From the IMG/VR virus record IMGVR_UViG_3300042938_000237, positions 1 through 30,595 of that record: a stretch of DNA of 30,595 nucleotides; one strand, given 5' to 3'. The position numbers and the translations under genes are program-made. Source of the DNA: a virus. A model generated the notes under the pieces. The model ran no database searches. It was given only the letters and a program-made list of their open reading frames with translations, and was not told the DNA's origin. Each line of letters begins with the position of its first letter. The first letter of the stretch is position 1. Shown piece by piece: positions 7,985 through 26,000 of the stretch.

Positions 7985-8344
7985 ATGGCAACTAATGACA
8001 TGGGTCCTGGACCACTTAAAAAGGCAAGACGCTTTGTAAAAAAGATTACTCAAGGAACTATCCTAGAGGATCAAAAAAAGGCACCAGGTGAAAAAAAGAA
8101 TCCTTTTGCAAAAATTGGTGGTTCTACTAAAGCAACTTACAAAACAGGTGGTATGGTAAATGCCAATGCTAAATTAGTAGCTGCTAAATCTGCAGGTAGT
8201 AAAGGTGTTAAAGCTGGAGTTAATCCTAAAGCTGCTGCATCTAAAGTTGCTAGAGGACGTGTTGGTGGTACATCTACTGCTCCTAAGAAAGCAATACCTA
8301 AAGCTAAGCTTGGTATGTCTATGAAAAGTAAAAAGTCTTGTTAG
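7985..8344 (+). CDS. Small basic Lys/Ala/Gly-rich protein, probable virion protein
   Basis: A 119-residue, strongly basic, low-complexity protein with segments such as TYKTGGMVNANAK and NPKAAASKVARGRVGGTS and a C-terminus ending KSKKSC. It starts 12 bases after the previous stop, with an A-rich leader. No folded domain is obvious. It carries the hydrophobic-x-x-Gly-Gly motif (YKTGG) shared with several neighbours. Composition suggests nucleic-acid binding, perhaps packaged with the genome, but that is inference. It heads a run of similar small basic genes continuing to 11560. Confidence 0.7.
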   Translation: MATNDMGPGPLKKARRFVKKITQGTILEDQKKAPGEKKNPFAKIGGSTKATYKTGGMVNANAKLVAAKSAGSKGVKAGVNPKAAASKVARGRVGGTSTAPKKAIPKAKLGMSMKSKKSC

Positions 8345-8345
8345 G

Positions 8346-8414
8346 ATGCCTAAGGAGATGCTTAAAAGAAAAGATGGTAGTGTGTCCCAGAGAGGTCTCT
8401 GGGATAAAAACTAA
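8346..8414 (+). pseudogene. Probable 5' remnant of a small basic gene split by the GIY-YIG insertion
   Basis: A 22-codon ORF (MPKEMLKRKDGSVSQRGLWD plus KN) starts one base after the preceding stop codon and ends five bases before the endonuclease start. Its end, RGLWDK, resembles ENSLWNNIRAAKG near the start of the small ORF after the endonuclease. Joining the two at the LW(D/N) match gives a continuous roughly 50-residue basic protein. I recall GLWDNIRAK-type small basic proteins from other phages. This is best read as one gene cut in two; two short independent genes are also possible. Confidence 0.5.
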
Positions 8415-8419
8415 AAGTT

Positions 8420-9040
8420 ATGTTAAATTTAACAGAAGAACAGTTTTTAAAGTATGTGACTAATAAAAGTCGTCAGGGTGTTATTTACAAAATAAGTAAC
8501 ACCCTTAATGATGATTTTTATATTGGAAGTACTCAAAACTTTGTAAAAAGATATTACACTCATGTTAATCATATTAGAGTAAATAAAAAATCTTGTACAA
8601 AGTTGATACGTGCAGTTAATAAATATGGAGAACACAATTTTAAATTAGAAATTTTAGAAGAATGTGATCCACAATATTTACTTACAAGAGAACAGTTTTA
8701 TTTAGATAATTTTTTACCTACATATAACATAGCAAAAATTGCTGGTAGTAATCTGGGAATAAAAAGAACTGAAGAGGTTAAATTACAAAAAGCATTGCTG
8801 CAAAAAATTAATTGGCAAAACAGTGACTATAAAAAACATCATTTAGAAAAACTATCAAAAAACTGGAAATCAGGAACAGAACATAAAATGGCAAAACTAA
8901 ATGAAGAACAAGTATTTACTATTAAAAAAGAATTAGCACTAGGTCATAAACCTAAAGAGGTATCAAATTTATTAAACTTGAGTTATCATTCAATTAAAGA
9001 TATACACAGAGGTAAAACTTGGAAAAATATAACTGTATGA
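8420..9040 (+). CDS. GIY-YIG homing endonuclease
   Basis: A 206-residue site-specific DNA endonuclease of the selfish type. GIY-YIG features are VIYKI at 21-25, FYIGST at 33-38, the catalytic-type Arg44 in FVKRYYTH, the metal-binding Glu91 in TREQFYLDNF, and Asn103 in PTYN. The C-terminal part (about 158-204: AKLNEEQVFTIKKELALG to HRGKTWKNI) looks like a helix-turn-helix DNA-binding domain common in homing endonucleases. It is more AT-rich than its neighbours, with long A runs, fitting separate ancestry. It sits between two pieces of what appears to be one small gene. Its TGA stop overlaps the ATG of the next ORF. Confidence 0.92.
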   Translation: MLNLTEEQFLKYVTNKSRQGVIYKISNTLNDDFYIGSTQNFVKRYYTHVNHIRVNKKSCTKLIRAVNKYGEHNFKLEILEECDPQYLLTREQFYLDNFLPTYNIAKIAGSNLGIKRTEEVKLQKALLQKINWQNSDYKKHHLEKLSKNWKSGTEHKMAKLNEEQVFTIKKELALGHKPKEVSNLLNLSYHSIKDIHRGKTWKNITV

Positions 9041-9180
9041 AAAAAAAATTAAATAAATTAGGTGTAGAAAACTCTTTATGGAATAACATCCGTGCTGCTA
9101 AGGGTTCTGGTAAGAAACCTACTAAGGAAATGCTTAAGCAGGAAAAGAAAATTAAAGCAACTACTAAAAAGAAAAAGTAA
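9037..9180 (+). CDS. Small basic protein, likely 3' part of the gene split by the endonuclease
   Basis: A 47-residue ORF whose ATG overlaps the endonuclease stop (ATGA) and whose TAA shares one base with the next ATG. The first 13 or so residues (MKKKLNKLGVENS) look like a new start acquired after insertion. The rest (LWNNIRAAKGSGKKPTKEML, then a Lys-rich tail) looks like the conserved part of a small basic phage protein. It may still be translated by coupling to the endonuclease. It pairs with the 22-codon remnant at 8346. Confidence 0.6.
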   Translation: MKKKLNKLGVENSLWNNIRAAKGSGKKPTKEMLKQEKKIKATTKKKK

Positions 9181-9419
9181 TGGCAATTAAAAAAACAACA
9201 ACTAAATCAACACCAGCTAAGAAATCTTCTTCAGTTGGTATTTCCATTTTAGGAGGCGGTAAAGCTGAGATGAGAAAATGGGAAATTGAATCTGCTATGT
9301 CTACATTAAAGAGAGCAGCAGAGATTCAGAAAGATGCCAAGATGATGACAGAGATAAAGAAAGAAGCTCTGAAACAAGCACAGATGTTTACAAGTCTTGC
9401 TGGTGGTAAAAAGATTTAA
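9180..9419 (+). CDS. Small helical protein of unknown function
   Basis: A 79-residue protein with a basic N-terminus (MAIKKTTTKSTPAKKSSS), a short GISILGGGK turn, then a long amphipathic helix at about 28-70 (KWEIESAMSTLKRAAEIQKD) and a Gly-Gly-Lys end. The start overlaps the preceding stop by one base and the next gene starts three bases after its stop, so it is probably translationally coupled. Similar small helical proteins occur near basic virion genes in other phages, from memory. No function can be assigned. Confidence 0.7.
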   Translation: MAIKKTTTKSTPAKKSSSVGISILGGGKAEMRKWEIESAMSTLKRAAEIQKDAKMMTEIKKEALKQAQMFTSLAGGKKI

Positions 9420-9421
9420 TC

Positions 9422-9694
9422 ATGGCAAAGACAGCAGCTTGGACAAGAAAAGAAGGTAAGAATCCAACAGGAGGTCTTAATGCTAAAGGAGTAGCTTCTT
9501 ATAGAGCAGCTAATCCTGGTAGTAAGTTACAGACTGCTGTAACTACTAAACCATCAAAACTTAAAGCTGGAAGTAAAGATGCTAAGAGAAGAAAAAGCTT
9601 CTGTAGCAGAATGTCAGGGGTTAAAGGTCCTATGAAGGATGAAAAAGGAAGACCTACAAGAAAGGCTCTTTCACTTAGAAAATGGAATTGTTAA
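9422..9694 (+). CDS. Small basic phage protein, DUF6321-like
   Basis: A 90-residue very basic protein with the pattern WTRKEGKNPTGGLNAKG near the start, KRRKSFCSRMSG in the middle, and GPTRKALSLRKWNC-like ending (KGRPTRKALSLRKWNC). This pattern is widespread in marine and gut phages and, as I recall, is catalogued as DUF6321; I cannot check the accession. Function is unknown. The Lys/Arg content and linkage to virion genes suggest a packaged nucleic-acid-binding protein. Spacing to neighbours is 2 and 12 bases, so it lies in the same transcript. Confidence 0.78.
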   Translation: MAKTAAWTRKEGKNPTGGLNAKGVASYRAANPGSKLQTAVTTKPSKLKAGSKDAKRRKSFCSRMSGVKGPMKDEKGRPTRKALSLRKWNC

Positions 9695-9706
9695 AAACTA
9701 TATATT

Positions 9707-10732
9707 ATGGCAACTAAATGCATGAGCTGCGGAGGCTCAATGAAAAAAATGAAAACAGGTGGAACTTCTTCTAAACCATGTCCTCCTGGATTATGTAAAA
9801 ATTGGAATCCAGAACATACTAGTTACGCATGTGACCCATGTCCTAGTGTTCAAGCAGCTCGTGGAATAATTGGTGGTATAGCTTCTGCTGCTGTAAATGC
9901 AATTACTTCTAAAATGGGTAAAAAGAGAGAAGCAAATAAAGAAGTAAAAGGTATGGTTAAGAATATTGTAAAAAAAGCTAAGTCAACAAAGGTTATGCAA
10001 AAAGGTGGTGCAACTTTACCAATGATGGGCATGCCTATGTATAGTAATAATCCAAGATCTGAACAAGGACGTATACTTAAAGCAGGTGGGTCTACTACTA
10101 ATAGAGCAGTAGCACCAGGATGCCGTGGAGGTATGGTTAAAGATGCTTCTGGAAAATGTGTTGCTGAAAGAAAGTTTAAAAAAGGTGGTTTCCCAGATTT
10201 AAATAAAGATGGTAAAGTTACTAGAGCTGATATTCTTAAAGGCAGAGGTGTTATTAAAAAAACTGGTGGCATTACTAAAATGGATGATGGGGGTGCTACT
10301 ACTAAGAAAAATTTTATAACTGGTAGAACTAGAGTAACAACACCATATGCAGTTGGTGCACCATCTAAAGGTACCGTAGCACCAAGAGATTATGCAACAG
10401 GAACCAAAACTGAGGTGTATAGTAAAAAAGGTGATTTAGTTAAAACTAAATATAAGTCTAGGGGTACTGGTAAATATGATACTGGAAATTCAAGATATCC
10501 TTATAACTATGTTAGAGAAGAGGAGAAGCCAGGTGGTGAAAAAAAAGAAAAGTATCCAATTCTTCCATCTTATATGCAACCAGCTGATAAGTTAAAAAAA
10601 GCTGGTGGAGCAACAACTAGCAAAACATTAAAACCAGTTCCTGCAGGAAAACCAGGTTTAGCAAAACTACCTACTCCTGTAAGAAATAAAATGGGATTCC
10701 AGAAAAAGGGTGGACCAGTTAAAAAGAAATAA
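9707..10732 (+). CDS. Basic Gly-Gly-motif virion protein with Cys-rich start and EF-hand-like loop
   Basis: A 341-residue basic protein without a recognised overall fold. The N-terminus has Cys at 5, 8, 25, 30, 42 and 45, a possible metal-binding knot. A short hydrophobic Ala/Gly/Ile stretch follows (about 48-65, GIIGGIASAAVNAI). Residues 164-175 read DLNKDGKVTRAD, matching the calcium-loop pattern D-x-N-x-D-G-x-V-x-x-x-D of dockerin-type EF-hands. Gly-Gly motifs recur through the chain (MKTGG, MQKGG, LKAGG, FKKGG, MDDGG, KKAGG, QKKGG). The rest is low-complexity Lys/Gly/Pro/Thr. It looks like beads on a string or a substrate for processing. Function is unknown; virion location is inferred from context. 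Confidence 0.68.
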   Translation: MATKCMSCGGSMKKMKTGGTSSKPCPPGLCKNWNPEHTSYACDPCPSVQAARGIIGGIASAAVNAITSKMGKKREANKEVKGMVKNIVKKAKSTKVMQKGGATLPMMGMPMYSNNPRSEQGRILKAGGSTTNRAVAPGCRGGMVKDASGKCVAERKFKKGGFPDLNKDGKVTRADILKGRGVIKKTGGITKMDDGGATTKKNFITGRTRVTTPYAVGAPSKGTVAPRDYATGTKTEVYSKKGDLVKTKYKSRGTGKYDTGNSRYPYNYVREEEKPGGEKKEKYPILPSYMQPADKLKKAGGATTSKTLKPVPAGKPGLAKLPTPVRNKMGFQKKGGPVKKK

Positions 10733-10734
10733 CC

Positions 10735-11094
10735 ATGCTGACTCCTAAAAAAGAAAAAACAAAACCAAGATTTACTTTTAAAGAAAAAGTAAAAATTGCA
10801 AAAACTATGATAAAGTCAAAACTTACACCCCCAAGTAAGGAATCTAGACAAACTCAGAAGGAATGGAAACAAGAACAAGATGCTCTTAAAGCTGAGTTTC
10901 CAGATGCTTATAATAAAAGAAAGGGCGGTGCTCCTAAAATGAAAAAGGGTGGTGCAACAAAAGATGATAAGTGGATTCAAAAAGCAGTAAACCCTAAACA
11001 TAAAGGTTACTGTACTCCAATGTCAAAACCTACATGTACTCCAAAGAGAAAAGCTTTGGCAAGAACTTTTAAAGCAATGGCTAAAAATAAATAA
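10735..11094 (+). CDS. Small basic WIQKA-type virion protein
   Basis: A 119-residue, highly basic protein. A helical Lys-rich first half (EKVKIAKTMIKSKL) is followed by two Gly-Gly motifs (KRKGGAP, MKKGGATKDD). The C-terminal segment (KWIQKAVNPKHKGYCTPM, then KRKALARTFKAMAKNK) resembles the WIQKA-to-MAK tail I recall from small basic proteins in many phages and some large DNA viruses. Cys residues in GYCTP and PTCTP may pair. It starts two bases after the previous stop. A DNA-compaction role is plausible but unproven. Confidence 0.68.
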   Translation: MLTPKKEKTKPRFTFKEKVKIAKTMIKSKLTPPSKESRQTQKEWKQEQDALKAEFPDAYNKRKGGAPKMKKGGATKDDKWIQKAVNPKHKGYCTPMSKPTCTPKRKALARTFKAMAKNK

Positions 11095-11095
11095 T

Positions 11096-11560
11096 ATGAA
11101 AAAGACTAATAAAGAAAATCCAATAACAACCTTTAGAAAAGCTAATGAAGCTAGACAAGGTGCAGTTATGAAATCTTTGAAAAAAGCTCAAGCTGGTATT
11201 CAGGTAAACCCAATGCCAACACTAGCTGCTAAACAAGTTCCAAGTAAACTTATGGAGAATGTTGAAAAAAGAAAAAAAATAGGTGCAGGTAAGTATAATA
11301 TGATGTTAGAGAGTAATAAAAGAGATAAAGATTTTTATGATAAATCAAAAAGTGAACTAGCACCTGGAATGGCAATGGGTGAATTTTCTCCTTCTTATAG
11401 AGAAACACGTCAAAGACCTGATTTAAAACCAAGCACCTGGAAAAATTTATCTCAAAATGGATTATATACAACCCCAGATGAAACAGGTAAAAGCCCAGTT
11501 CCAAATAATATTGAAAGTACCTACTACAAAAAAGGTGGTGCAAAAAAGAAAAAGAAATAA
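11096..11560 (+). CDS. Basic protein with C-terminal Gly-Gly-polylysine tail
   Basis: A 154-residue basic protein ending STYYKKGGAKKKKK. The body is low-complexity with no recognised domain, and a helix is predicted near residues 50-85. It starts one base after the previous stop and the next gene starts three bases after its own, so it belongs to the same operon. The terminal YKKGG motif matches those in neighbours. Function is unknown; it probably belongs with the basic virion set. Confidence 0.65.
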   Translation: MKKTNKENPITTFRKANEARQGAVMKSLKKAQAGIQVNPMPTLAAKQVPSKLMENVEKRKKIGAGKYNMMLESNKRDKDFYDKSKSELAPGMAMGEFSPSYRETRQRPDLKPSTWKNLSQNGLYTTPDETGKSPVPNNIESTYYKKGGAKKKKK

Positions 11561-12267: not shown

Positions 12268-12780
12268 ATGGAAAAACCTAGAATGTTAAAAAGAAACCCA
12301 GAATCCTCTAGTAATAGAGTGGTGTTAGATATTATCTCACCAACAAAAAGTGAACCAGCTAAACCACAACCTACTTCAAGTACTGGTGTTGGTGGAAGTT
12401 CATTAGATAACATGGTGGCTGCATGTGCAATGGAACTAATGAATGCTAGAAATAGTTTTCACAAGCTTCATTTAAAAGTTACCGGAGAAGGATCTTATGC
12501 TGCTCATATAGCCATAGGAGATTTTTATGATGGTTTACCAGGACACGCTGATACCTTAGTAGAAGGTTATCAAGGAGTATCTGAGAAAATACTTGAGTGC
12601 AAAGATGTAGCATGTAGAACTTTAGATACAGTAGCTGATGGTGTTGCTTACTTAAGAGACATCTATGCAATGATTAACAAGTTACAAGGCATGTTACCTT
12701 ATTCAGAAATAGTTAACAACTTAGATCTTGTAAAAGACAGTGTTAATTCTACTAAGTATAAATTACTTTTCTTGAAATAA
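12268..12780 (+). CDS. Dps/ferritin-like protein
   Basis: A 170-residue protein. After a flexible Ser/Pro N-terminus (1-45) it has a helical domain whose residues 68-99 align with the Dps ferroxidase region. His68, His80, Asp95 and Glu99 have spacings of 12, 27 and 31 residues, identical to His51, His63, Asp78 and Glu82 of E. coli Dps. His93 matches Dps His76, and VTG follows the first His as NMRG does. The position of Dps Asp67 is Gly84, with Asp85 next to it. Dps proteins oxidise iron with peroxide and shield DNA. Viral ferritin-like families (DUF5856-type, from memory) exist. Linked to capsid genes, it may be packaged or protect DNA during infection; activity is not shown. Confidence 0.7.
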   Translation: MEKPRMLKRNPESSSNRVVLDIISPTKSEPAKPQPTSSTGVGGSSLDNMVAACAMELMNARNSFHKLHLKVTGEGSYAAHIAIGDFYDGLPGHADTLVEGYQGVSEKILECKDVACRTLDTVADGVAYLRDIYAMINKLQGMLPYSEIVNNLDLVKDSVNSTKYKLLFLK

Positions 12781-12843: not shown

Positions 12844-14436
12844 ATGAGTTATTTTAATCATGCCTTTAGAAAAACCTTTGTGGGAACAAATGGTTTTCAA
12901 GAATTAAACAAAGGCCGTCTTGGTACTCCTGGAAACATTTTCCAAGGAGGACAGTTCGGTTTTGTTAATCCAAAAACATGGAACATATTAGATACAACTT
13001 GGAACAGTGGAGTTGGTTGTTGCAACCTTATCCTTGCTGCAGGTTCAATTTATCAAAATGATAAAATTGGTCCTTTCCATGGAGGATACCAAGAGTCTAA
13101 CAAATCTAAGGAAATCAATCCTAAGTATGTAAGCAAGTTCTATCGTGTAGATCCATGTTTACCACAAAGTAATGTTATCCATTTGGGTAATACAGCTTAC
13201 ACAGATGATGTTGCTTTATTATTATCTACAGCTGGTGCTGGAGATCCAGGATCTGGTCTTGTTGATGAGATTTATACAGATGTTGAATTATCATGTGTTA
13301 CATGTACTGGTACTAATGATGCTCCAATCTTTGCTAACATTACTGTAGTAGGTGGTGAAGTTACATTTGTAGAAATAGTTAATGGTGGATCAGGTTATGT
13401 AACAGGAGATACTGTTGAAACATTAAATGCTTTACCAGGAACTGGTGAGTTTACTCAACCATTATTTGTAGTAACTGCTGGTGTAGGTGCTAACTGCTGT
13501 AAAGAATTCTTTTGTGGTGAGACATATACATTACGTGTTGATGTTAAAGGTTCTCCTGCATTAAGATTATTAAACCATAACTCTTATATCATTGCTTCTG
13601 CATATGGTGGATGTTGTACAGATGAGCTTGCTCCAATTGTACCTAATGTTATTGACTCTACATTAATATTCAAACAATGGGCTGAGGCAATTACACGTTA
13701 CCCAGTTATTTCTCCATTCATGCAGATTATACTAGTTGATGAGTTAGGTACTCCTTGGTATGCACCAGGAACAGATGCTACTTTCTTAGCTAGTCTTCCT
13801 TTTCCTGCAGATACTTGGGATCATTATGTATCTCCAGGACACACCCCTGATGGTTGTGCTGGTTTAGTTCTTAACGGGGCTTATGTTGATACTAAATTCC
13901 AAAACTGTACATTCCAAATCTCTGACTTCTATGAATTAGAGCCAGTAAGATTGTATGCTTCTGAAGTAGATTTAAATGGTGATCCTTGTTTATTTGATAC
14001 TTTATGTGTTATCACAGAATGTCAAGGAAGACAAGCAATGGGTTATGGTGAGTCAGTAGCAAGAGATGTTATTTTATCTGAGCAATACAGACAAAACTTC
14101 TTCCATTCAGACTTCCGTATCCGTGAGATTACTCAAGGTTACAGTGTGTTTGATTATATCAACAGAAATACTTTGTATACAAGATATTTCTTACAACACA
14201 ATGTTCCACGTTTTAATAACCCATCTAGTACATTTGATAATGATCAATACTTGTTAGAAGTTATTACTTGTGGAAGAATTGCTGCATTTGAAACTTTTGT
14301 GGATCTATGGTTAGAAGACTGTTCTCAGTGTACAGGTCTTGAGATTGAAGGTTGTGTTACTGATTGTACACCATTATACACTTTTCCTGTTCTTACAACT
14401 AACTTTAGTCCTAACACAATTCAAACTTGTGACTAG
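12844..14436 (+). CDS. Abundant structural protein of unknown role (530 aa)
   Basis: A 530-residue beta-rich protein with many Cys pairs (GVGCCN, GANCCKEFFC, GGCCTDE). Residues about 160-215 form a small extra beta module with the pattern VNGGSGYVTGDTV, a motif seen inserted in many phage appendage proteins. The C-terminal third (YGESVARDVILSEQYRQNFF; RIREITQGYSVFDY) looks conserved and helical. Like the MCP it has its own A-rich leader and its own strong terminator, so it is probably made in high copy. It could be a second shell, head fibre or tail component. I see no tail-sheath signature strong enough to name it. Confidence 0.72.
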   Translation: MSYFNHAFRKTFVGTNGFQELNKGRLGTPGNIFQGGQFGFVNPKTWNILDTTWNSGVGCCNLILAAGSIYQNDKIGPFHGGYQESNKSKEINPKYVSKFYRVDPCLPQSNVIHLGNTAYTDDVALLLSTAGAGDPGSGLVDEIYTDVELSCVTCTGTNDAPIFANITVVGGEVTFVEIVNGGSGYVTGDTVETLNALPGTGEFTQPLFVVTAGVGANCCKEFFCGETYTLRVDVKGSPALRLLNHNSYIIASAYGGCCTDELAPIVPNVIDSTLIFKQWAEAITRYPVISPFMQIILVDELGTPWYAPGTDATFLASLPFPADTWDHYVSPGHTPDGCAGLVLNGAYVDTKFQNCTFQISDFYELEPVRLYASEVDLNGDPCLFDTLCVITECQGRQAMGYGESVARDVILSEQYRQNFFHSDFRIREITQGYSVFDYINRNTLYTRYFLQHNVPRFNNPSSTFDNDQYLLEVITCGRIAAFETFVDLWLEDCSQCTGLEIEGCVTDCTPLYTFPVLTTNFSPNTIQTCD

Positions 14437-14461
14437 TATTTAGTATTAAACTATAAACAAT

Positions 14462-14496
14462 AAGGGGAGAAGAGTTTCATACTCCTCCCCTTTTTT
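14462..14496 (+). terminator. Rho-independent terminator after the 530-aa structural gene
   Basis: AAGGGGAG pairs with CTCCCCTT, and an inner GAGT pairs with ACTC around TTCAT, giving a 12-bp interrupted stem followed by TTTTTT. Confidence 0.88.
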
Positions 14497-14508
14497 ATTT
14501 CAAATCCT

Positions 14509-15051
14509 ATGGCAAATCACGTATTAAGTTTAGAAGTACCTACAGTAATGAATTCTTGTATCTTAAAGATATTTGATACAAGTATTTATACCACAATGCT
14601 TCCTGTAACTTGTCCAACACTAAATATTACAGTGCCTGGATTTGGGTATTCTGTACAATTAGATGTTACTGAAAACTTTGCAGAAACAATTACTGCATGT
14701 GATCTTCAGTTACAGACAGTAGATTGCGGAACTAGATACTCTGATATACCAGATGGAATATACATTATTAAATATAGCGTATCTCCTAATGATCAAGTAT
14801 ATGTAGAGTACAACCATATGAGAATTACACAAGCTTTAATTAAGTACAATAAAGTATTATGTGATGTTGATGCTGCGGCATGTGATCCGCCATTTCAAAT
14901 TAAACAGAAATTAGAAGCTTTGAGATTAATTAATATGTATCTTCAAGCGGCCAAAGCAAAAGTTGAGTATTGTCATGAGCCTCAGAAAGGAATGAGTCTT
15001 TATAACTATGCTCTTAAACTTTTAAATAAATTAACCTGTACTAATTGTTAA
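14509..15051 (+). CDS. Structural protein with beta domain and helical hairpin
   Basis: A 180-residue protein. Residues about 1-110 are beta-rich (TLNITVPGFGYSVQLDV, IPDGIYIIKYSVSPN, VYVEYNHMRI). Residues about 125-180 form a helical hairpin ending in CTNC. No enzyme motif is visible. It opens the appendage cluster between the 530-aa protein's terminator and the adhesin, so a connector or collar function for fibres is plausible. Start ATG has the A/T-rich context TTTCAAATCCT. I do not recognise a named family. Confidence 0.68.
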   Translation: MANHVLSLEVPTVMNSCILKIFDTSIYTTMLPVTCPTLNITVPGFGYSVQLDVTENFAETITACDLQLQTVDCGTRYSDIPDGIYIIKYSVSPNDQVYVEYNHMRITQALIKYNKVLCDVDAAACDPPFQIKQKLEALRLINMYLQAAKAKVEYCHEPQKGMSLYNYALKLLNKLTCTNC

Positions 15052-15072
15052 ACATTTTAAAACCAACAAAAT

Positions 15073-15282
15073 ATGTCAACGTGCGGAAACTGTGGAGCTA
15101 AGTTAAGTTGTGGCTGCCAGAAAAGAACATTAGCAGACGGTAAACAAGGTTGTAGTAACTGTGCTAGTAAAGTAACAGCTAAAGCAAAAACTGTTACAAA
15201 GACTGTTGCTGGACAACCTACTGTAAACACAAATACTTGGGGACCTAATAGATATTTAAACTTGAAAAAATTTACTAAGTAA
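15073..15282 (+). CDS. Zinc-ribbon-like Cys-rich mini-protein
   Basis: A 69-residue protein whose first half reads CGNCGAKLSCGCQK then DGKQGCSNCASKV, giving CxxC, CxC and CxxC clusters (Cys 4, 7, 13, 15, 27, 30) that could bind one or two zinc ions. The second half is basic and unstructured (KAKTVTKTVAGQ). A CCAACAA leader sits before its ATG. The stop shares one base with the adhesin start, so the two are translationally coupled. Similar CGNCG mini-domains occur in other Bacteroidota phages, from memory. Role unknown; a structural or folding helper for the Cys-rich adhesin is a guess. Confidence 0.68.
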   Translation: MSTCGNCGAKLSCGCQKRTLADGKQGCSNCASKVTAKAKTVTKTVAGQPTVNTNTWGPNRYLNLKKFTK

Positions 15283-17621
15283 TGGTTCTATTTCCAAATG
15301 CATACATTGTTTCTAATTGCTGTGATTCAGTTACCACAGTAACAATTAATATTGCTGGTTTTACAACAACATCAGATTATGTGTATACTTATACTGGTAG
15401 TACTTATCTTATAGGAGGAGTTTTATTTAAAGCAGGTAATTGTTATTTTATACAAGCTGCTGGAAACTCAATTGCATTTACAGGTCCATCATCAACAGAC
15501 TTTATATCAACTGGTGCTAAGGCGTGTAATCTTACACTTGAAGATGCTTGTCCTGAATGTTCAACTGTTCAACAATATTTAACATTTGAGCCTTGTTGTG
15601 GTGATGATCCTATATATTTTCAAATACCATTTGGTGGATTTTATGAAGGTTTGTATGAATATGTGGGAACACCAGTTTCAGGTCTAGAAAATATTTGCTA
15701 TTCAGTTACCTTAAATGATGTTGGTGTAGCACCAATTAATTCAGGAAATTATCCTATATTACCAGCAGCTCCAATATTTACTGATGGTGTAACATACAGT
15801 GTATTATCTTTTGATAATTTAGATTGTGATTTTTACATTGACTCTGAAGAATGTCCAACATGTATTGCTCCTTGCTATACATTATATAATTGTGACGGTG
15901 AATGGATGAATACTACAATAGATTTATCTGCTTATATAGATCCGCTAATACCAATTCAGATATATGATATAGATGGTGCTATACCAGGAACATGGTATGT
16001 TTTCCTTAATACAGGTGATTGTAGTGGTGCAAGAAATGATATATCAGTAGATCTTTTTGCTCCTGAACCATGTGTATGTAGGTGTTTTACAGTAGTTACT
16101 GATAGCGGAGTTAAAGGAAGATACTTAGACTGTGATGGTAATCTTCAAAAAATTATTGTTAATGCTAGTTTCTGTTCTCTTGTTGTTCCGCTTATTGAAA
16201 GTGCAGCTGGACCATATGAAGTAGTTGAAGGTGGTAATTGTATTGATGGAATATGCCCAATTAAATGTTTTGAACTTACTGAATGTACTACAGGTGAAGT
16301 AATAACATCTCAGTCTCAACGCTTAGAGCAATATTTTATATCAGGAGAAGTAATAGAACTTGTTGGTCATCCAGGATGTTGGGAAGTTACTAGTGATGCT
16401 GCTAGAGATTGTACTTGCCCAGTAGATTTAACTGTAACTATTGTACATGATGGTTGTGCAGAATGTATAGGTGTAATAGCCTACAAACTTACTAACTGTC
16501 AGAATATAAATGATATTAAATATACTTATGATGACTTATCTGAGTATATACTAAATGGTGTAGGCCTAACATTACTTACTGATTGTGGATGTTATCTAGT
16601 AGAGTTAATTGACTTTCAACCTACAAGTATATCTCCTATAGTTATCATATCTTCATTTAATGGTTGTCCTGAGTGTCTTAGACCCTATTACATGCTTACA
16701 GACTGTAATGAAGCAGAAGCTACTGTTTATACTTATACAGATTTATCTATATATGTTGGTCAAGTTATAAATATTAAAGGATGTGATACTTGTTGGCAAG
16801 TCTTTGATACAGACACTCCTATTAATCCTGGTATAGTTACAGTAACAAATTCATTTAAATTTTGTATAGATTGTACTCCTCCATTACCTTGTTTATGTAA
16901 CAGAATAACAAATTATAGTACTACTACTAAAGAATATGAATACATAGACTGTGATGATGAGAGTGTATTATTAACTTTAGCAGCAGGGGAAAGTAGTGGA
17001 AAAATATGTCTTAAGAGATGGGTTGTAGATTATCCTGATACAGATAACCTAGAAGTATTTGGAGATTGTGTTTTGGGTGGTGATTTTTGTTATGAATATA
17101 ATATTACTATTGGTAGTGGAGCAAGTGGAAAACTTTATTATAAAAATTGCAGTGGTAATGTTGAGTCTAGGCTGGTGGCATCACAAAAATTTCCATACAT
17201 AGAAACAATTTGTGGTGTTAATAATCAAACATCAAGTGACATATATATTGTAGGAACAGGAACTATACGCTTTGAAAAAACTACAATATGTTATACACCA
17301 ACACTTGTATGTCCAGAGACTAGACCTAAAAGAAAAATTACACCTGGATACTCTGTACCTACATGTGATATAGACAGGTATGAAAAAATAACTTGTAGAG
17401 CATCTGAGATTCTTTATAAAGAAGTAATAAGACTTAGATATGGTATAAGTAACTGTTGCCCAGAAGATGATGAGAAGTGGTTAATTAAAAAAGAATTAAT
17501 TGATCTTGCAGCTTTAGTAGATCCAAATTATATATGCACACCAGTACAAACATGTGGTTGTGCACCAAGTTCATGTGGATGCGGGTGCAGTTCTACACTT
17601 AAGACTTGCAATTCTCAATAA
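15282..17621 (+). CDS. Cysteine-rich modular repeat protein, probable fibre/adhesin
   Basis: A 779-residue secreted-style beta protein with about 60 cysteines by hand count but no signal peptide. It is built of repeats. Module A (about 15873-16875) follows the pattern LTxC...YTYxDLSxYvgqvI...CxxCWxV...CxxC, best seen in YKLTNCQNINDIKYTYDDL and YYMLTDCNEAEATVYTYTDL. Module B (about 16083-16270 and twice in 16892-17295) follows Y-x-DC-D...C. The last 120 residues are a distinct cap (PGYSVPTCDIDRYEKITC; RYGISNCCPEDDEKW) with a CGCAPSSCGCGC tail. This architecture suits a receptor-binding fibre or head decoration. ATG overlaps the previous stop. Function inferred from repeats and context. Confidence 0.72.
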   Translation: MVLFPNAYIVSNCCDSVTTVTINIAGFTTTSDYVYTYTGSTYLIGGVLFKAGNCYFIQAAGNSIAFTGPSSTDFISTGAKACNLTLEDACPECSTVQQYLTFEPCCGDDPIYFQIPFGGFYEGLYEYVGTPVSGLENICYSVTLNDVGVAPINSGNYPILPAAPIFTDGVTYSVLSFDNLDCDFYIDSEECPTCIAPCYTLYNCDGEWMNTTIDLSAYIDPLIPIQIYDIDGAIPGTWYVFLNTGDCSGARNDISVDLFAPEPCVCRCFTVVTDSGVKGRYLDCDGNLQKIIVNASFCSLVVPLIESAAGPYEVVEGGNCIDGICPIKCFELTECTTGEVITSQSQRLEQYFISGEVIELVGHPGCWEVTSDAARDCTCPVDLTVTIVHDGCAECIGVIAYKLTNCQNINDIKYTYDDLSEYILNGVGLTLLTDCGCYLVELIDFQPTSISPIVIISSFNGCPECLRPYYMLTDCNEAEATVYTYTDLSIYVGQVINIKGCDTCWQVFDTDTPINPGIVTVTNSFKFCIDCTPPLPCLCNRITNYSTTTKEYEYIDCDDESVLLTLAAGESSGKICLKRWVVDYPDTDNLEVFGDCVLGGDFCYEYNITIGSGASGKLYYKNCSGNVESRLVASQKFPYIETICGVNNQTSSDIYIVGTGTIRFEKTTICYTPTLVCPETRPKRKITPGYSVPTCDIDRYEKITCRASEILYKEVIRLRYGISNCCPEDDEKWLIKKELIDLAALVDPNYICTPVQTCGCAPSSCGCGCSSTLKTCNSQ

Positions 17622-17639
17622 TAATTAGTATATTATAAT

Positions 17640-19040
17640 ATGAAACCTTTAAACTTAGATAATAGACCATGTAGCCCAATATCAAGTAACTGTGTTATTT
17701 GGCAGGGTCCAGATATTCCTTGCATTAAATTATGTACAGGAGATACAATATCTGATGTGATATTCAAACTGGCTACTGAGTTATGCACCATAATGGACAC
17801 ACTAGATATTAAGAACTATGACTTGTCATGTTTTAATTTAGCAGCATGTCCTCCAGCTGATTTCCAAGCTTTGATTCAATTTTTAATTGAACAGATTTGT
17901 TCTTCTGAAAGTATTGCTACAACTAGATCAAGTCCAGTTTCAATTTCAAACTGTCCTGATTGTGTTGTAACAGTAGCAAGTTGTTTTATAGTTGGCAGTC
18001 AGTCAACTATGCAATTAGTAGATTATGTATTAATGATTGGTAATAGAATCTGTAGTATTATAACAGACATAACACAATTACAAAATCAAATTGATAATAT
18101 AAATATAAGAGTAACTGCATTAGAAGATGCTGTGCCACCTTCATTTACACTACCGTCAATCAGCACAGGGTGTCTTGGACCATATATGAGTGGTACTCCT
18201 GCTAGTGCAACAATTGATTTGGTTTTAAATGCAATGTTGAATAATGCTACTATTGGTTATTGTCAATTAATTGGAGCAACAGGTTTACCATCTGAAATTA
18301 CAAGTGCTGTTCTTTCACAATGTATATTTGATACTAGTGTATCATTAGAATTTAGTCCGGCAACTTTTGAAGCAGCATATGCTGGATCATGGGTGCAGGC
18401 AGGAGATTTAAATTCAGCAGCAGATGCAATCAATAACATATGGATATCTATCTGTGATATATATAACTATGTTAGTGGTTTAGTGTTAGCAACAAGTGTA
18501 GTAGATGCAGGAGTTGGTACAGCAGTTACATCAGCAACGGTTGGTACTGTAACAACATATACTGTATCCACATTAAGTTTTACGTGGGTAGGTCAATCAG
18601 TGTTACCGAACATTCCCAAATTAACTCCGGGATGGGGAACAGGTAGACTATGTGATGGTGCTAATATTATAATGACAAATGTTCTTTATAATGAAGACTC
18701 TGGATATAATCCAACATTAGGTATATGGTCATGTCCTACTACAGGAATGTATAGATTAGATTTTGTAATAAGTTTAACAGCTCCCTCTCCAGATGGTTGG
18801 TTAGATGCTGTACCAGGAATGATTATAGCTGGTTTAACTACACCAACTGCTTGTGATTTCTATGTAGTAAATAATTTTACTCCAAATGTTATAAGCAAAC
18901 ATGCTACAATTAGTGGTTCTGCAACTACATACATGGTTGCAGGAAATGAGGTCTGTTTGAAAATAGCAAATCTAACAAATATAGATTATGTAAGTACAGC
19001 CGGTGATTCTGTTAAAATGTCAATTGAAAGAGTAAGATAA
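17640..19040 (+). CDS. Receptor-binding fibre with C1q-like tip
   Basis: A 466-residue fibre. The N-terminal module (about 15-60: CVIWQGPDIPCIKLCTGD...) is shared with the following 80-aa gene and probably anchors it to the virion. A short coiled coil lies at about 140-165 (ITQLQNQIDNINIRVTALE), expected to trimerise. The C-terminal 150 residues look like a C1q/TNF-type jelly roll (GIWSCPTTGMYRLDFVISLT is the typical strand pair; GNEVCLKIANLTN follows), a fold used for host recognition by phage fibre tips. The next ORF's ATG overlaps its stop. Fold naming is from motif memory; host target is unknown. Confidence 0.68.
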   Translation: MKPLNLDNRPCSPISSNCVIWQGPDIPCIKLCTGDTISDVIFKLATELCTIMDTLDIKNYDLSCFNLAACPPADFQALIQFLIEQICSSESIATTRSSPVSISNCPDCVVTVASCFIVGSQSTMQLVDYVLMIGNRICSIITDITQLQNQIDNINIRVTALEDAVPPSFTLPSISTGCLGPYMSGTPASATIDLVLNAMLNNATIGYCQLIGATGLPSEITSAVLSQCIFDTSVSLEFSPATFEAAYAGSWVQAGDLNSAADAINNIWISICDIYNYVSGLVLATSVVDAGVGTAVTSATVGTVTTYTVSTLSFTWVGQSVLPNIPKLTPGWGTGRLCDGANIIMTNVLYNEDSGYNPTLGIWSCPTTGMYRLDFVISLTAPSPDGWLDAVPGMIIAGLTTPTACDFYVVNNFTPNVISKHATISGSATTYMVAGNEVCLKIANLTNIDYVSTAGDSVKMSIERVR

Positions 19041-19403: not shown

Positions 19404-19985
19404 ATGAAGGAATTTAAAAAACCAGATGTAAAAGCTCCTAGATTTAGACCGGAAGTGTACAATGTTCTAAACACAGAGTTCTTTGATTTATTTAGAAAGA
19501 AGTATCCAAGATTCAAAAGTCTTGATAATATCCAATTAAAAAAGATTGTGAAGACATTTAACAGAACAGTTTTTCAAACAGTGATTGATACAAGAGATGG
19601 TGTTGAATTACCTGATGCTCTTGGTTGGTTATTTATCGGAACATGTGAACAAAGTAAAAAACAAAATATAAACTTTGCTAAGTCTGTTAAGTATGGTGTA
19701 GCAGTTTCAAATAACAATTGGGATACTGATGGTAAACTTGCTAAAATCTTTTACAGTAACCTTGCACCTAAACACAGAATAAAGAATAGAGAGTTCTGGG
19801 GGTTTACAGGATGCAGAGACTTTAAAAGAACAGTTGCAAAAACATATCCTGAAAATTGGAATATGTATGTAAGAGTGGATCCACTTTCTAAATTAGAAGC
19901 AATATACAGAAGTGTTCAATATAAAGATGTATTAAAAAAACAAACTGAAAAGGCACTTGTAAATTATAATGAATTTGACTTATGA
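19404..19985 (+). CDS. Conserved phage protein beside connector genes, possible HU/IHF-like start
   Basis: A 193-residue basic protein. Residues about 45-75 (a helix, then VIDTRDGVELPDALGWLFIG) resemble the helix-turn plus 'G-x-x-V-x-L-x-x-x-G' strand of HU/IHF proteins, which bend DNA; crAss-like phages are known to carry IHF-like genes near tail genes. The C-terminal half (NWDTDGKLAKIFYSNL, REFWGFTGCRDFKRTV) has no DNA-binding arm I can recognise, so the resemblance is weak. It starts after a terminator and overlaps the next start by four bases (ATGA). A tail-completion or connector role is equally possible. Confidence 0.65.
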   Translation: MKEFKKPDVKAPRFRPEVYNVLNTEFFDLFRKKYPRFKSLDNIQLKKIVKTFNRTVFQTVIDTRDGVELPDALGWLFIGTCEQSKKQNINFAKSVKYGVAVSNNNWDTDGKLAKIFYSNLAPKHRIKNREFWGFTGCRDFKRTVAKTYPENWNMYVRVDPLSKLEAIYRSVQYKDVLKKQTEKALVNYNEFDL

Positions 19986-20647
19986 CAACAATAGGAGAAG
20001 CCATATCAAGAGTAAGGAATGCTGTTAAAGGTGTTAAAGAAGATCCTTTTTTAACAGACCGGCAGATATACTTTTCTTTAATGAAGTATGCACTTACATT
20101 AATAAAAAGAGAAGATAACCAATACAGATTGATGAAGATAAGTTCTATCTTTAAAGTGCTTCCATATGTAGAGCTAATAGATGTAGATAAAGTAGAAGCT
20201 CAATGTGCTGGTGTTTATTCTGAGTGTTATATTAAAAGATCTAAAGATAAACTTCCAACTATACTAGATGGTGTGTTTGGTCCTATTATCCGTACCACAT
20301 CTTCTATAGATGGATCTATAGAAATGTTCAGAACGGATCCTGGTACTTGGGTATCAATGACTAAGACTACAACTTTTAAATATAATACAAGACCATACTT
20401 CTGGTTTCTTAATGGTTACATATATTGTCCTAATATAGATTGGGATGCAATAAAAATTGAAGCAATCTTTGAAGGTAATGTAGATATATGTAATCCTGAA
20501 GTTGAATGTGAAATAAGACAAGATCAAACTTTCTCACTACCTGAATACTTATTCTCTGAGGTAGAGCAGTTTGTAATTAAAGAATTAACAATGCTAATGT
20601 CTGTACCTGTTGACAGTACAGATGATGGTCAAAATATACTTAGATAA
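19982..20647 (+). CDS. Connector/tail-tubular-like ring protein
   Basis: A 221-residue protein with N-terminal helices (FLTDRQIYFSLMKYALTLIK), a beta-rich centre (TTTFKYNTRPYFWFLNGYIY) and a C-terminal helix (LFSEVEQFVIKELTMLMSVP) followed by DDGQNILR. The helix-beta-helix layout, with the beta part between long helices, and the position just before the tail hub fit head-tail connector or ring proteins of crAss-like phages. The start overlaps the previous stop by four bases (ATGA) and the stop overlaps the next start by one. The exact ring number cannot be given. Confidence 0.62.
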   Translation: MTTIGEAISRVRNAVKGVKEDPFLTDRQIYFSLMKYALTLIKREDNQYRLMKISSIFKVLPYVELIDVDKVEAQCAGVYSECYIKRSKDKLPTILDGVFGPIIRTTSSIDGSIEMFRTDPGTWVSMTKTTTFKYNTRPYFWFLNGYIYCPNIDWDAIKIEAIFEGNVDICNPEVECEIRQDQTFSLPEYLFSEVEQFVIKELTMLMSVPVDSTDDGQNILR

Positions 20648-21690
20648 TGGATTTTAATTACACTCTCCGCTATAGAACTTTTGATCAGTTACTGGAAGAT
20701 GTTTCAGTAGACATGAATACATTTGCTTTAGAAAACATGATTGAGCCTCAGACTTTAATTAAGTTAGTTAAAAAACTAAACTATGATCTTGGTCTCAGAG
20801 TTAATCAAACCAAAGAAATTATATTGGAAATATGCCATGGTAGAGTAAAACTTCCAGATGACTTTTATGTATTTAATTATGCAATGGTATGTGGAGAGTT
20901 TGATGTAACAACAGGTTATGGCGGACATGCTTCTGGTACTAATATTCAAGAAGTTCCTTATAAGGAATTTCCATCTACAGTAGATCAATGTGCCTTACCA
21001 AGTGTTAACTGTAGAACATGTAATGCTAATCCTTGTAACAATACCGCAGCTTGTGATCTTAATCATCCTATAGTAGATCCAATACCAACAGCATATGATC
21101 CTAATAATCCTTATGGTGATACATGTATTCCACCAAGGGTTTTTATGAATTGTAAAGGAGAAAAATATGAATTAATTGAAGTAGTTAATAGAAGTGAAAC
21201 AAGAACATACAGAAGACTAGTTCCACTTAGAATGAAAGCAAGTCAAGAAATAGAATGTGACTGCCCTAATTTATATATTGATACAGTTAATCAAGGTTGG
21301 ATAAAAGGAGGTTTTCTTTTTACAACATTTGACACAGGTAAAGTTTATTTAAATTACCAAGGTGCACTAGAAGATGAGGCAGGTAACTTACTTGTTCCAG
21401 ATCATGACTTACTTAATGAGTATTATGAGTATGCATTAAAACAAAGAATCCTTGAGAACTTATATATGAATGGTGAAGATGTTGCTCAAAGAATGACATT
21501 AATTGATCAAAGACTTAGAGTAGCAAGAAATGCAGCACTAAGTTTAGTCAATACTCCAAACTTTAAAGAAATGCAAGATCTTTGGTGGACCAATAGAAGA
21601 GCCCAGTACAGCAAGTATTATGATATGTTTAAAAGCTATAGTCCTAATTCTGCATACAATAGGTACTATGGAAACAATAGAGTTATTTAA
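20647..21690 (+). CDS. Tail tubular protein (P22 gp4-like connector type)
   Basis: A 347-residue protein. The N-terminal helical part (about 1-60) and the C-terminal segment (about 215-325: GGFLFTTFDTGKVYLNYQGA, LVPDHDLLNEYYEYALKQRI) match the layout of crAss-like 'tail tubular' proteins, where a strand-strand unit with 'G-x-V-x-x-x-Y-x-G' is followed by 'PDH' and long helices. A Cys/Asn-rich insert lies at about 115-140 (NCRTCNANPCNNTAAC). It begins on the last base of the previous stop, and the hub follows two bases after its stop. It would join portal or ring to the tail hub. Family naming is from memory of the pattern. Confidence 0.66.
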   Translation: MDFNYTLRYRTFDQLLEDVSVDMNTFALENMIEPQTLIKLVKKLNYDLGLRVNQTKEIILEICHGRVKLPDDFYVFNYAMVCGEFDVTTGYGGHASGTNIQEVPYKEFPSTVDQCALPSVNCRTCNANPCNNTAACDLNHPIVDPIPTAYDPNNPYGDTCIPPRVFMNCKGEKYELIEVVNRSETRTYRRLVPLRMKASQEIECDCPNLYIDTVNQGWIKGGFLFTTFDTGKVYLNYQGALEDEAGNLLVPDHDLLNEYYEYALKQRILENLYMNGEDVAQRMTLIDQRLRVARNAALSLVNTPNFKEMQDLWWTNRRAQYSKYYDMFKSYSPNSAYNRYYGNNRVI

Positions 21691-21692
21691 CT

Positions 21693-23036
21693 ATGGCAAA
21701 GATTCAAGATACTTCACAAACCAAACCTAGTAATTTTATAAAAGGTTTAAATAAAGATACTGATCCTACTTATATTCAAGAAGGTATGTGGACACATGCT
21801 CGGAATGTAGTAAATAATGATATTGAAGGTGACATAGGTTCATTAACTAATCAACCTTCTAATTTTAAATGTCCAAAAGATTTTCCTCCTGGAAGCACCA
21901 TGCCTCAAGCTGGAACAGGAACAACTATTGTTGTAGCAAGATATATAATTGGAGTAGTGCATTTGTTTTCTGATAAATGGATTATTTATACAGCAGGTCA
22001 TAATAATACGGGTCAACCAGTTATGTCTGAGATAGGCTTATTAGAAGAAGCAAGTTGTACTTATAGACCAATTGTTCAAGATGCATGTTTAGGTTTTGAT
22101 AAAAGATATTTAATATCAGGAGCATCTAGATTAACAGAAGATTGTTCTTGGCAGGTATATTGGGCTGATGGTTTAAATCCAGATAGATATCTTAATGTAG
22201 GTGATCCACAAACTTGGCCATCATCTGCTTATACTTGGGGATTAAGCATCAATCCTGCAACAACTCCAACTGCATATACAAACACTGTAAACTTTTATTT
22301 AGATTCTGCAGGCGGAACTATTCAATGGCCAGGAGTTGCTTGGAATGAAATATGTACTGATAGTGTATCATGTACTCAAACATCCCCAGGAGTATGGCCA
22401 CCAGGCTGTCCTCCAGTAAATGCTTGTATTACATGTAACCCTGTTAATAGTTTAAACTGTGACAAAACAAGATTAGCAAGTCTTATGAACACACCATGTT
22501 TAAAAGTAAGACTAGGAGACTCTGGTGGAACATTAAGAAATGGTACATACTCTGCTACTTTAGCATATAGTATTAATGGTATTAAAGTAAGTGATTATTT
22601 TTCTATTAGTAATACTCAACCAATCTGGTATCCAAATGATTTACAAGGATCTATAATTATTGAAGTAAATGCAGATACAGAAAACTTTGATGAGTTTATA
22701 CTTGTAGTTATTCAAAATATAAATCAAGGTACTGTAGCTAAACAAATTGGTATATATTCAACAAGGACACAAAGAATAGAACTAGATCAAATAAAAGATG
22801 ATCTTATAACTGTACCTATTAGGTTTTTACCAAACATAACTCCAATTGTTGAAACATCAAATCAAATTGCAGAAGTTAATGATTATCTTTTAAGAGCTGG
22901 TCCAAGATCTAAATTTGATTTTAATTATCAACCTCTTGCTAATTTAATAAGATCAAGATGGATATCAGTAGATTATCCAGCAGAATATTATGTAAATGGT
23001 GGTAACAAAGGTAGTTACTTACGTGATGAAGTATAA
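21693..23036 (+). CDS. Tail hub/stabilisation protein, N-terminal part (ends at in-frame TAA)
   Basis: A 447-residue open stretch. Its start (FIKGLNKDTDPTYIQEGMWT, then HARNVVNNDIEGDIGSL) is the hallmark of crAss-like tail hub proteins related to P22 gp10, which form the beta-propeller tail core. It stops at TAA 23034-23036 after SYLRDEV, but the same frame continues with AFYIRWVYNTGDKSASYHIP and stays open to 27332. So this is the first quarter of one 1,880-codon gene, interrupted once. TAT or TAC (Tyr) would restore the EVYAF sequence I recall from relatives. Whether the break is a mutation, a sequence error or readthrough cannot be told here. Confidence 0.8.
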   Translation: MAKIQDTSQTKPSNFIKGLNKDTDPTYIQEGMWTHARNVVNNDIEGDIGSLTNQPSNFKCPKDFPPGSTMPQAGTGTTIVVARYIIGVVHLFSDKWIIYTAGHNNTGQPVMSEIGLLEEASCTYRPIVQDACLGFDKRYLISGASRLTEDCSWQVYWADGLNPDRYLNVGDPQTWPSSAYTWGLSINPATTPTAYTNTVNFYLDSAGGTIQWPGVAWNEICTDSVSCTQTSPGVWPPGCPPVNACITCNPVNSLNCDKTRLASLMNTPCLKVRLGDSGGTLRNGTYSATLAYSINGIKVSDYFSISNTQPIWYPNDLQGSIIIEVNADTENFDEFILVVIQNINQGTVAKQIGIYSTRTQRIELDQIKDDLITVPIRFLPNITPIVETSNQIAEVNDYLLRAGPRSKFDFNYQPLANLIRSRWISVDYPAEYYVNGGNKGSYLRDEV

Positions 23037-26000
23037 GCCTTTTATATCCGTTGGGTTTATAACACAGGAGATAAATCTGCATCATATCACATTCCAGGAA
23101 GGGCTGCAGGAACTTACAATATAAATGGAATTAGTTATCCTGAAACAATTCCCTGGACAGACAAAAATACATTAGCATCAGGTGATAAGCTATTTGAAGT
23201 ATACAATACTGCAAGTATGTTAAATCCAAATCCCGCAATCAACCCAATAATAGGCACTACAACAGATGATGGTGGTACTGTAATTGCAAATGGCTTAATG
23301 GGTTATTGGGAATCAGATGAACAATACCCAGATGATAGACCAGAGATATGGAATGCAAGTGAGCATTGTTGGACAGGATTTGAAGGATTACCAGACCCAT
23401 CTTATGACTTATGTGGTTTACCAATAAGACATCATAAGTTTCCAGATAATTATCTTAATGATAGAACATTACATTTTGAGAGTAATCCAAATTACATGAC
23501 TCAAGGTAACAACCTTAGAATCAGAATAATGGGTGTTAACTTTGAAAATATAATATATCCAAAAGATAATGATGGTGTTGATATCCCAGGGATTGTAGGA
23601 TATGAAATACTAAGAGGATCCAGAGAGGGTAACAAGAGTATCATTGCTAAAGGTATGGTAAATAACTTTAGAACTTATGATATAAAAGGTACAGTTAAAA
23701 GAGGTAGGACAGGTCTTTATGCTAACTACCCTTTTAATACTATTAGACCAGCTTCTAATACTGGAACAGGTAGTGATCATAATGTTGGGTTTAATGATCC
23801 TTATATTAAAGTACCAGATTCTAATAACCCAAATAATGTAATTAACCAACAAGTACCAAGAGATATTATTTCCTTTCACTCACCAGATACAATGTTTAGA
23901 ACTCCGTTCTTATCATTTACTGAGTTAAAAATATATGGTAATTTACGTGGTGCTTCATCACAAGCTTTTAAAGAACCAGATCAACATCCTAAATGGAAAT
24001 TAATTTCTAATGAAACGGTTGCAATAATGTATGTTCTTGGTATAGCAGAAGCTGTATATTCATTTCAAGGAAAATATATTGTTAATGAACCTCCACCACA
24101 ACCAATACCCTTTGTGGATTTAGTAACTAATCCTGTAGCTTATGCTGCTCAATATGCAGGTTCTCTTGCCCTTGGTGCAGCAACAGGTAATTATGAAGCA
24201 CAACTAATTGGTTACTACAATGGTTTAGGTACAACTAATATTCTTAATCCAACACCAACTATTCCGCCAATAATTCCTGGAGGTATGTTAATTGATGCAG
24301 TTGCATCAATATTTACAGGAGCTAGACCCATTTATGGTCTTTCCATTAATGCTGTATACAATACTGCTTTAGAGGCAGCTGCCCTAGCTGGTACCATTTC
24401 ACCAAGTTATCAATCATTTACAAGAGAACTTCCTAAATGGTCATACCTTGATCCTATATCTAGAGCTCTTGGTGGTCTAAACCAATTCTTATTTTATTTT
24501 AATGAAGGTGTAGACATTGCATTAAGAGGAATATATGCATCCATAAAGTTTGACCAGTATGCATTACAAATGATTGCTCATGGTTTTTATTCATCTTTTG
24601 CTGCAAACAATTCCACAGACACAGTAAGGTTTAGAATTGAAGATGCATCCTTTTTGAGAGATAATATATTAGAGTTACCAAGATACACATCAGGACCCAC
24701 GGCGTATTCTTATAGTATTAATAACTTAAAAAGATCTGACACAGTTGTACTAAGAACTGATTGTGGTGTTCAACAAAATAATCCAGATAAAGGACCTGCT
24801 TATATAGTAGCTGCGGCTAATGTTGGTGGTGGTACTGTTGACCAGACATTACAAACTTTAGGTACTGTAAATCCTGGAGGCTTATCAAGCTTACCAACAT
24901 TTCAAAATGTTACTACACCCTTTCAACAAAAGATGGCTAGTCACTACGCTGCTGTAAAAGTAAGACTAGGTAATCAGTATGGTCAATTATTTTCAAGTTA
25001 CCAAGGTGTAAAACAAATTGTTATTACTCCATGTGAACAAACTATAGGCACAACAGATAATACCTTTACATCATTTCAATTAGGAGTAACATGCCCCTTT
25101 GGAGGTGCTGTTGAACAACTTACTTTAGAAAGATCACCAATATTCTTTGGAGGTGATGTATTTATAAACAGATATACTGAGAAGAATTCAATGTTCTTTT
25201 TCTATGATTGGTTATATGGTCAACCAGAGGGCTTTGAGTTTAATTATGGATTAAGACAAATGATTCCGCAACCCAGGTTTGTTGTTAATTCAGAAAGGTT
25301 TGATTCATCTGATTTATTAAATTTTAGTGGTTCTGGTGTAACAGCTGTTCCAGTTACTACTGGTTTTTTACCTACACAATTCTATAATATGGATAATGAT
25401 AATTATAATTATTCAACGGACACAGTAAGTTTTTATCCAGGAGTATTCAGACCAAAGAACTCTTATTTTTACTTAGCATGTTCTTCTGTAAGAGATTTCT
25501 TTGTAGAAAGTGAAGTACTTGTAGACTTTAGAATTGATGGAGACACTGAATGGGAAAAATCATACAATCCATACACCTATACAAATTTGGATGCTATGTT
25601 TAACATGGATCCTCAAATTATTACAAGAGGTAACTGGTATAGATATGATTACTCACTAAGTATTTCCAAAGCTCTTAATAATTATTTCTCTGCAGGTAAT
25701 TTGCAAAGCAGATATTATGATCCTACTATAGCTTCTTTATGCTTTACATATTATCCTAATAGAATAATATATTCTATGCAGCAACAGGATATGAGTTATA
25801 GAGGCGACCACTGGTTGGTATACTTAGCTAATAATTATAGAGACTTTAAGTCTCAACTCAGTGGACTCAAGTCTGTAAACAAGAGTGGTGTATTTATTAC
25901 ATTTAAAAATGATAGTCCATTAATGTTTCAAGGTGTAGATCAATTACAAACTGAACTAGGTACTAAACTTACTATAGGTGACGGAGGTTTATTTAGTCAA

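Follow-up and report, generated by a model that had tools for sequence, protein, structure and literature searches.

A Dps-type protein encoded among the structural genes of a freshwater-type crAss-like phage

We analysed a window of 30,595 nucleotides (positions 1 to 30,595 of virus record IMGVR_UViG_3300042938_000237) and found that a 170-aa protein encoded among its structural genes is very likely a homologue of the Dps proteins with an intact tetrad of ferroxidase-site residues (His68, His80, Asp95 and Glu99). Considering fold, site, gene order and virion data of relatives together, we favour, at slightly better than even confidence, a combined reading in which the protein forms a compact Dps-type iron-oxidising cage that is made late in infection and is probably packaged. 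Phage-encoded Dps proteins and the family label PF19174 were known; the variant that resides in a capsid gene block and is linked to virions is new. The coordinates of the relevant features are given in Table 1 and the evidence is presented in the following.

Table 1. Features of the Dps-type gene, its surroundings and the T4 homologue (window positions unless indicated otherwise)
Feature	Position	Strand	Remarks
Upstream gene, 232 aa	11564..12262	+	csAssE-Sib ring/adaptor homologue (1.1e-14); phrog_29507 virion structural protein
Dps-type gene, 170 aa	12268..12780	+	PF19174/phrog_858 member; AlphaFold model with Dps fold
N-terminal tail, residues 1-42	12268..12393	+	low-confidence/disordered in models
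Helix A, residues 45-70	12400..12477	+	AlphaFold model
His65	12460..12462	+	extra His, 3 before the first ligand; 25/27 diverse members, invariant in close homologues
His68	12469..12471	+	E. coli Dps H51; invariant
Helix B, residues 76-105	12493..12582	+	AlphaFold model
His80	12505..12507	+	Dps H63; invariant
Gly84	12517..12519	+	at the Dps D67 position; family has G, N, D, E, others
Asp95	12550..12552	+	Dps D78; invariant
Glu99	12562..12564	+	Dps E82; invariant
Asp153, helix D	12724..12726	+	26/27 diverse members
Downstream gene, 530 aa, Cys-rich	12844..14436	+	weak virion-structural match
CrAss_Ring_2 (PF25702)	19982..20647	+	above Pfam cut-off
CrAss_Ring_1 (PF24228)	20647..21690	+	above Pfam cut-off
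T4 rI.-1/MobD.6	820-1206 of T4 locus L170	-	PF19174 114.7 bits; full H/H/D/E tetrad

Family membership and predicted fold

The 170-aa protein matched PF19174 (DUF5856) with 49.4 bits (curated Pfam cut-off 34.6), so that the DUF5856 lead of an earlier, sequence-only reading of this DNA proved correct, and it matched phrog_858 of the PHROGs collection with 4e-17; the latter profile was matched by all 27 members of the close alignment of relatives (A1). Over 1,300 sequenced phage genomes carry a gene of the PF19174 family, and no mention of DUF5856 was found in the literature searched. In PHROGs, phrog_858 is labelled 'starvation-inducible transcriptional regulator', a name that RefSeq also gives to PF19174 proteins and that seems to be a distorted Dps name. 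The label itself is what speaks for a role in transcription regulation; against it stand the predicted Dps fold and the lack of any regulator-type DNA-binding domain in the prediction, and we rejected the label on the basis of the fold, leaving the regulator a very improbable explanation. The 'DPs' mentioned in the literature on phage 7-7-1 are decoration proteins, unrelated to Dps.

A single-sequence search against the PDB sequences yielded nothing useful and Dps was reached by profiles only. The close-relative profile recovered mostly Dps proteins with weak E-values, and the profile of a diverse alignment (A2, 30 relatives) connected the protein to HP-NAP (best match, 7.6e-07), CAIP (2.4e-05), D. 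radiodurans Dps2 (2.3e-04) and numerous further Dps proteins, the tetrad staying in register. AlphaFold, supplied with A2, predicted a core with pLDDT values of 91-97 and four helices (residues 45-70, 76-105, 122-142 and 146-168); the short BC helix was absent from this better model and occurred as a helix at 104-110 in the first model, and the B-C linker (106-121) is short. Foldseek against the PDB returned mainly Dps or ferritins as best matches (probability 1.00, E 0.007-0.015, modest values since helical bundles score poorly), and a second structural aligner ranked mostly Dps chains on top, many of them at Z 14-16 and M. smegmatis Dps2 (MsDps2) at Z 16.3 (2.2 Å over 127 residues). A predicted fold other than a four-helix bundle had been named beforehand as an outcome that would overturn the Dps interpretation; the fold that was predicted is a Dps four-helix bundle. 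Unrelated helical bundles can attain Z 13-14 and the fold alone is therefore not decisive: the kinship to Dps is decided by fold, profile homology and the invariant site together.

The protein shares with the bacterial Dps proteins (E. coli Dps, HP-NAP, Listeria Dps, MsDps2) the four-helix bundle, the four ferroxidase residues with their spacing and a disordered N-terminal tail, and differs from them in a non-acidic residue at the D67 position, a low identity (10-15%) and an aligned core that is about 15 residues shorter than that of MsDps2 (128 versus 143 residues spanned), so that the standard 12-mer is not assured. With the PF19174/phrog_858/VOG0375 family, including T4 RI.-1 and LIMEstone1 ORF78, it has the core length, the helices and the tetrad in common, and it is set apart from the rest of the family by a 42-residue N-terminal tail with a conserved motif of its own. 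This motif is short, basic and located near the start (R5, L7, K8, R9); a conserved GVGGSS at 40-45 immediately precedes helix A, and residues 1-45 count seven K+R and four D+E. The tail might anchor the protein on DNA or inside the capsid. Structural matches to the fold were also found in the giant viruses Pithovirus LCPAC404 and Fadolivirus (BFVD A0A481ZC29, A0A7D3V608).

Conservation of the ferroxidase-site residues

Positions 12469-12564 comprise the codons of His68 through Glu99 within the open reading frame. In the profile alignment, residues H68, H80, G84, H93, D95 and E99 pair with H51, H63, D67, H76, D78 and E82 of E. coli Dps, respectively, and the pairing that had been proposed from the letters alone was recovered exactly. 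The conservation of these His, Asp and Glu residues among homologues, which had been put forward as a point on which the interpretation could fail, was complete: the tetrad was retained in 27 of 27 family members below 62% identity (crAss-like phages, podoviruses, 640-kb phages, Aeromonas phages, LIMEstone1 and T4). Residues S76, A82 and G103 were invariant in this set as well, and Asn150 was kept in 24 of its members. Among 82 close homologues H65 and the tetrad residues never vary, and over 81 close loci the tetrad codons show synonymous variation while the residues remain unchanged. A search for H-x11-H-x14-D-x3-E recovered 204 of 232 family members and none of the 5,975 unrelated open segments that were drawn from the same loci (1.18 million residues), and the spacing is therefore not a matter of chance; the members lacking it that we inspected have a shorter A-B loop and still possess the tetrad.

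The remaining two positions behaved differently. His93 does align with H76, but it is kept in 58 of the 82 close and only 2 of the 27 diverse homologues, and we rejected the functional equivalence to H76 and consider the match incidental. Likewise, it had been recognized that Gly84 takes the place of Asp67, which is correct, but the adjacent Asp85 does not qualify as a substitute, since residue 85 is variable as well. Position 84 itself is not conserved across the family (Table 1). Because the D67-equivalent of the 170-aa protein is non-acidic, we classify it as a variant-site homologue of the Dps type rather than a canonical Dps. Within the Dps family an Asp is not obligatory at the D67 position, as HP-NAP, a solved Dps, has Glu there in the profile alignment. 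In the relative encoded by cr108_1 (a gut crAss-like phage) all five residues, H, H, D, D and E, are present.

An alternative is a protein with a structural or DNA-compacting function, whose H/H/D/E residues would hold a structural metal between the subunits of a dimer and perform no redox chemistry. The lack of a D67-equivalent, the additional His65, the short length, the tail and the connection to virions (see below) would all suit it. Against it argue the retention of all four Dps ligands, the presence of the D67-equivalent in the cr108_1 relative and the Glu of HP-NAP, and we consider such a protein unlikely. The sequence-only reading had left the choice between an active protein and a structural element that has lost its iron chemistry; the active metal-binding protein is favoured and the loss disfavoured, because both Dps half-sites are invariant across the phage family.

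In Dps the ferroxidase half-sites meet across the two-fold subunit interface. On one predicted helix, H80 is followed 15 residues later by D95; by helix geometry this should amount to about 22 Å, too far for a metal to be shared within one subunit, and as both half-sites are invariant, we argue for the same inter-subunit pairing as in Dps. The model thus implies an inter-subunit ferroxidase site at the interface, and iron-oxidising activity of the 170-aa protein is predicted with good confidence.

Genome setting and relatives in other phages

The source phage is a freshwater-type crAss-like phage (Crassvirales sensu lato), for which homologues of portal, MCP, terminase and CrAss_Ring_1/2 were all found, and it is placed among the crAss-like phages because CrAss_Ring_2 is present. 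The portal matched best to those of Leptolyngbya phage Lbo-JY46 (32%) and csAssE-Sib (28%), to which the MCP, terminase and ring/adaptor protein could be matched too; the nearest named relatives, Lbo-JY46 and Cellulophaga phi17:2, are both listed outside the order Crassvirales. The earlier description of the surroundings as a structural gene block was accurate: terminase, portal, MCP, ring/adaptor-type, CrAss_Ring_2 and CrAss_Ring_1 genes lie around the Dps-type gene. The latter follows the 232-aa ring/adaptor-type gene after 5 bp, and this arrangement is fixed, with the 232-aa gene upstream in 90 of 90 relatives and the 530-aa gene downstream in all 89 relatives whose locus reaches that far. 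A scan for promoters and terminators around the gene performed no better than shuffles.

The window displayed several other features. The interval from the MCP region to the ring/adaptor gene (7985-11560) is filled by genes for six small proteins of strongly basic composition (21-29% K+R), most of them with KxGG-type motifs that recur in the ORFs 27332-29611 and 29658-30595; these basic proteins are possibly capsid-interior or sorting peptides. A GIY-YIG homing endonuclease gene (8420-9040) resides within the structural block. The structural region also contains a run of Cys-rich proteins (12844-19040), including a 779-aa ORF with 60 Cys (15282-17621) and a 466-aa ORF with a weak C1q-like match. 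Finally, two ORFs of 447 and 1371 aa (21693-27332) share a frame that only one in-frame stop (TAA, 23034-23036) interrupts; the same frame is open over 1764-1887 aa in ten out of ten relatives tested, so that the interruption is peculiar to this contig and represents either an assembly error or a mutation.

The phages csAssE-Sib, Lbo-JY46 and cr108_1 have terminase, portal, MCP and ring/adaptor homologues in common with the source phage, yet only cr108_1 carries a PF19174-like gene, which is located in the MCP-to-tail block (between the MCP and tail tubular protein genes). For Lbo-JY46 and csAssE-Sib no match to PF19174 or phrog_858 was obtained anywhere in either phage, the matching junction included, where the homologue of the upstream gene is kept with only 25 and 142 bp to the next gene; the Dps-type gene was therefore gained in the source lineage or lost in theirs. 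A second viral scan with A1 mostly returned the same loci again, and a genome scan with A1 returned one locus, on a phage-like 7.9-kb contig that was binned in a Sphingomonadaceae MAG and is probably a phage contig. This contig showed the order ring/adaptor, Dps and next gene at 53% identity. As evidence for naming a host, this single locus is too weak.

Elsewhere the gene recurs near head genes. In podoviruses (MW202640, DSL-LC05, locus L176) it is found immediately after the portal/head-tail adaptor gene; in the T4-like, Aeromonas and large phages it is located outside the head-gene clusters, and a capsid role therefore need not be general. A link to the particle comes from the Dickeya phage LIMEstone1, of which ORF78 is a family member that carries the tetrad: it was detected in virions by ESI-MS/MS (13.15 kDa, 28.21% coverage, 3 unique peptides) and entered as 'unknown structural protein' (PMC3296691). 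The same virion preparations also yielded proteins that the authors termed unexpected (PMC3296691), and carry-over of ORF78 is thus possible. In phi-crAss001 the virion has a capsid zone that is able to hold approximately 5 MDa of cargo protein (PMC10172136). As a homologue is found in LIMEstone1 virions and several phages without mutual kinship have the gene beside portal, connector or capsid genes, packaging is supported indirectly, and the virion of the source phage more likely than not contains the 170-aa protein. The fold was also matched by part of several BFVD models of 290-763 aa with the annotation 'prohead protease' or 'DNA-binding protein Dps' (those with the protease annotation are A0A6J7WPK9, A0A6J7XDU5 and A0A6J7WIS1); a protease-Dps fusion, if true, would suggest loading into the prohead.

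The same fold and site evidence would also hold for an active Dps-type ferroxidase that works late and in the infected cell only, where it would lower free iron and peroxide during DNA replication and packaging, and for which the place among structural genes would reflect timing and nothing else. The ferritin-like Dps-type enzymes of the Gratiaviridae (PMC8008677) and of Lactobacillus phages, where the genes lie near replication genes (PMC6669764), have been described as acting in the host cell and not as virion proteins, and the homologues of T4-like and large phages are away from head genes. Conversely, the presence of a tetrad-bearing homologue in LIMEstone1 virions and the recurrence of the portal/connector/MCP neighbourhood in unrelated phages argue against action in the cell alone, which we regard as possible but doubtful.

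T4 RI.-1 belongs to PF19174, and its discussion has been confined to a potential accessory role in lysis inhibition (PMC6832632, PMC3622015). A further candidate role of the 170-aa protein is that of a lysis-timing accessory. The T4 gene is part of the rI lysis-inhibition operon and its over-expression slightly delayed the collapse of lysis inhibition (reviewed in PMC6832632). However, the effect was slight and seen upon over-expression, RaK2 has a homologue but lacks the remaining genes of lysis inhibition (PMC3622015), rI.-1 is truncated by a frameshift (early stop) in some laboratory stocks of T4 (PMC8573959), which makes the gene dispensable in the laboratory, and in the source phage the gene is located in a capsid/neck operon. 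A role in lysis timing is accordingly hard to credit.

Proposed role and significance

In the packaged-cage reading that we favour, the gene would be expressed together with the capsid and neck genes. Two subunits would pair head to tail, bringing H68 and H80 of the first opposite D95 and E99 of the second, and a di-iron site would be formed at the subunit interface, as in Dps. At this site Fe(II) would be oxidised with the consumption of peroxide or oxygen, by which iron is kept off the DNA. The protein would probably be taken into the head, where the basic, flexible N-terminal tail may hold it to the DNA or to the inner head surface, and packaged or entering DNA would be shielded from Fenton damage. 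More tentatively, and with considerable doubt, PF19174 as a whole could constitute a phage-specific Dps branch that provides a head-loaded, DNA-delivered, iron-oxidising protector in several unrelated lineages (crAss-like phages, T7-like podoviruses, Ackermannviridae), and T4 RI.-1 would then be this enzyme too, its assignment to lysis control being mistaken.

The Dps-type reading with its invariant site gives DUF5856 a direct and testable biochemical function, and with LIMEstone1 and T4 there are cultured phages in which it can be tested now. If the protein is packaged, the particle itself carries protection against iron and peroxide, which would bear on the survival of virions in oxygenated water and on the escape of incoming DNA from oxidative damage.
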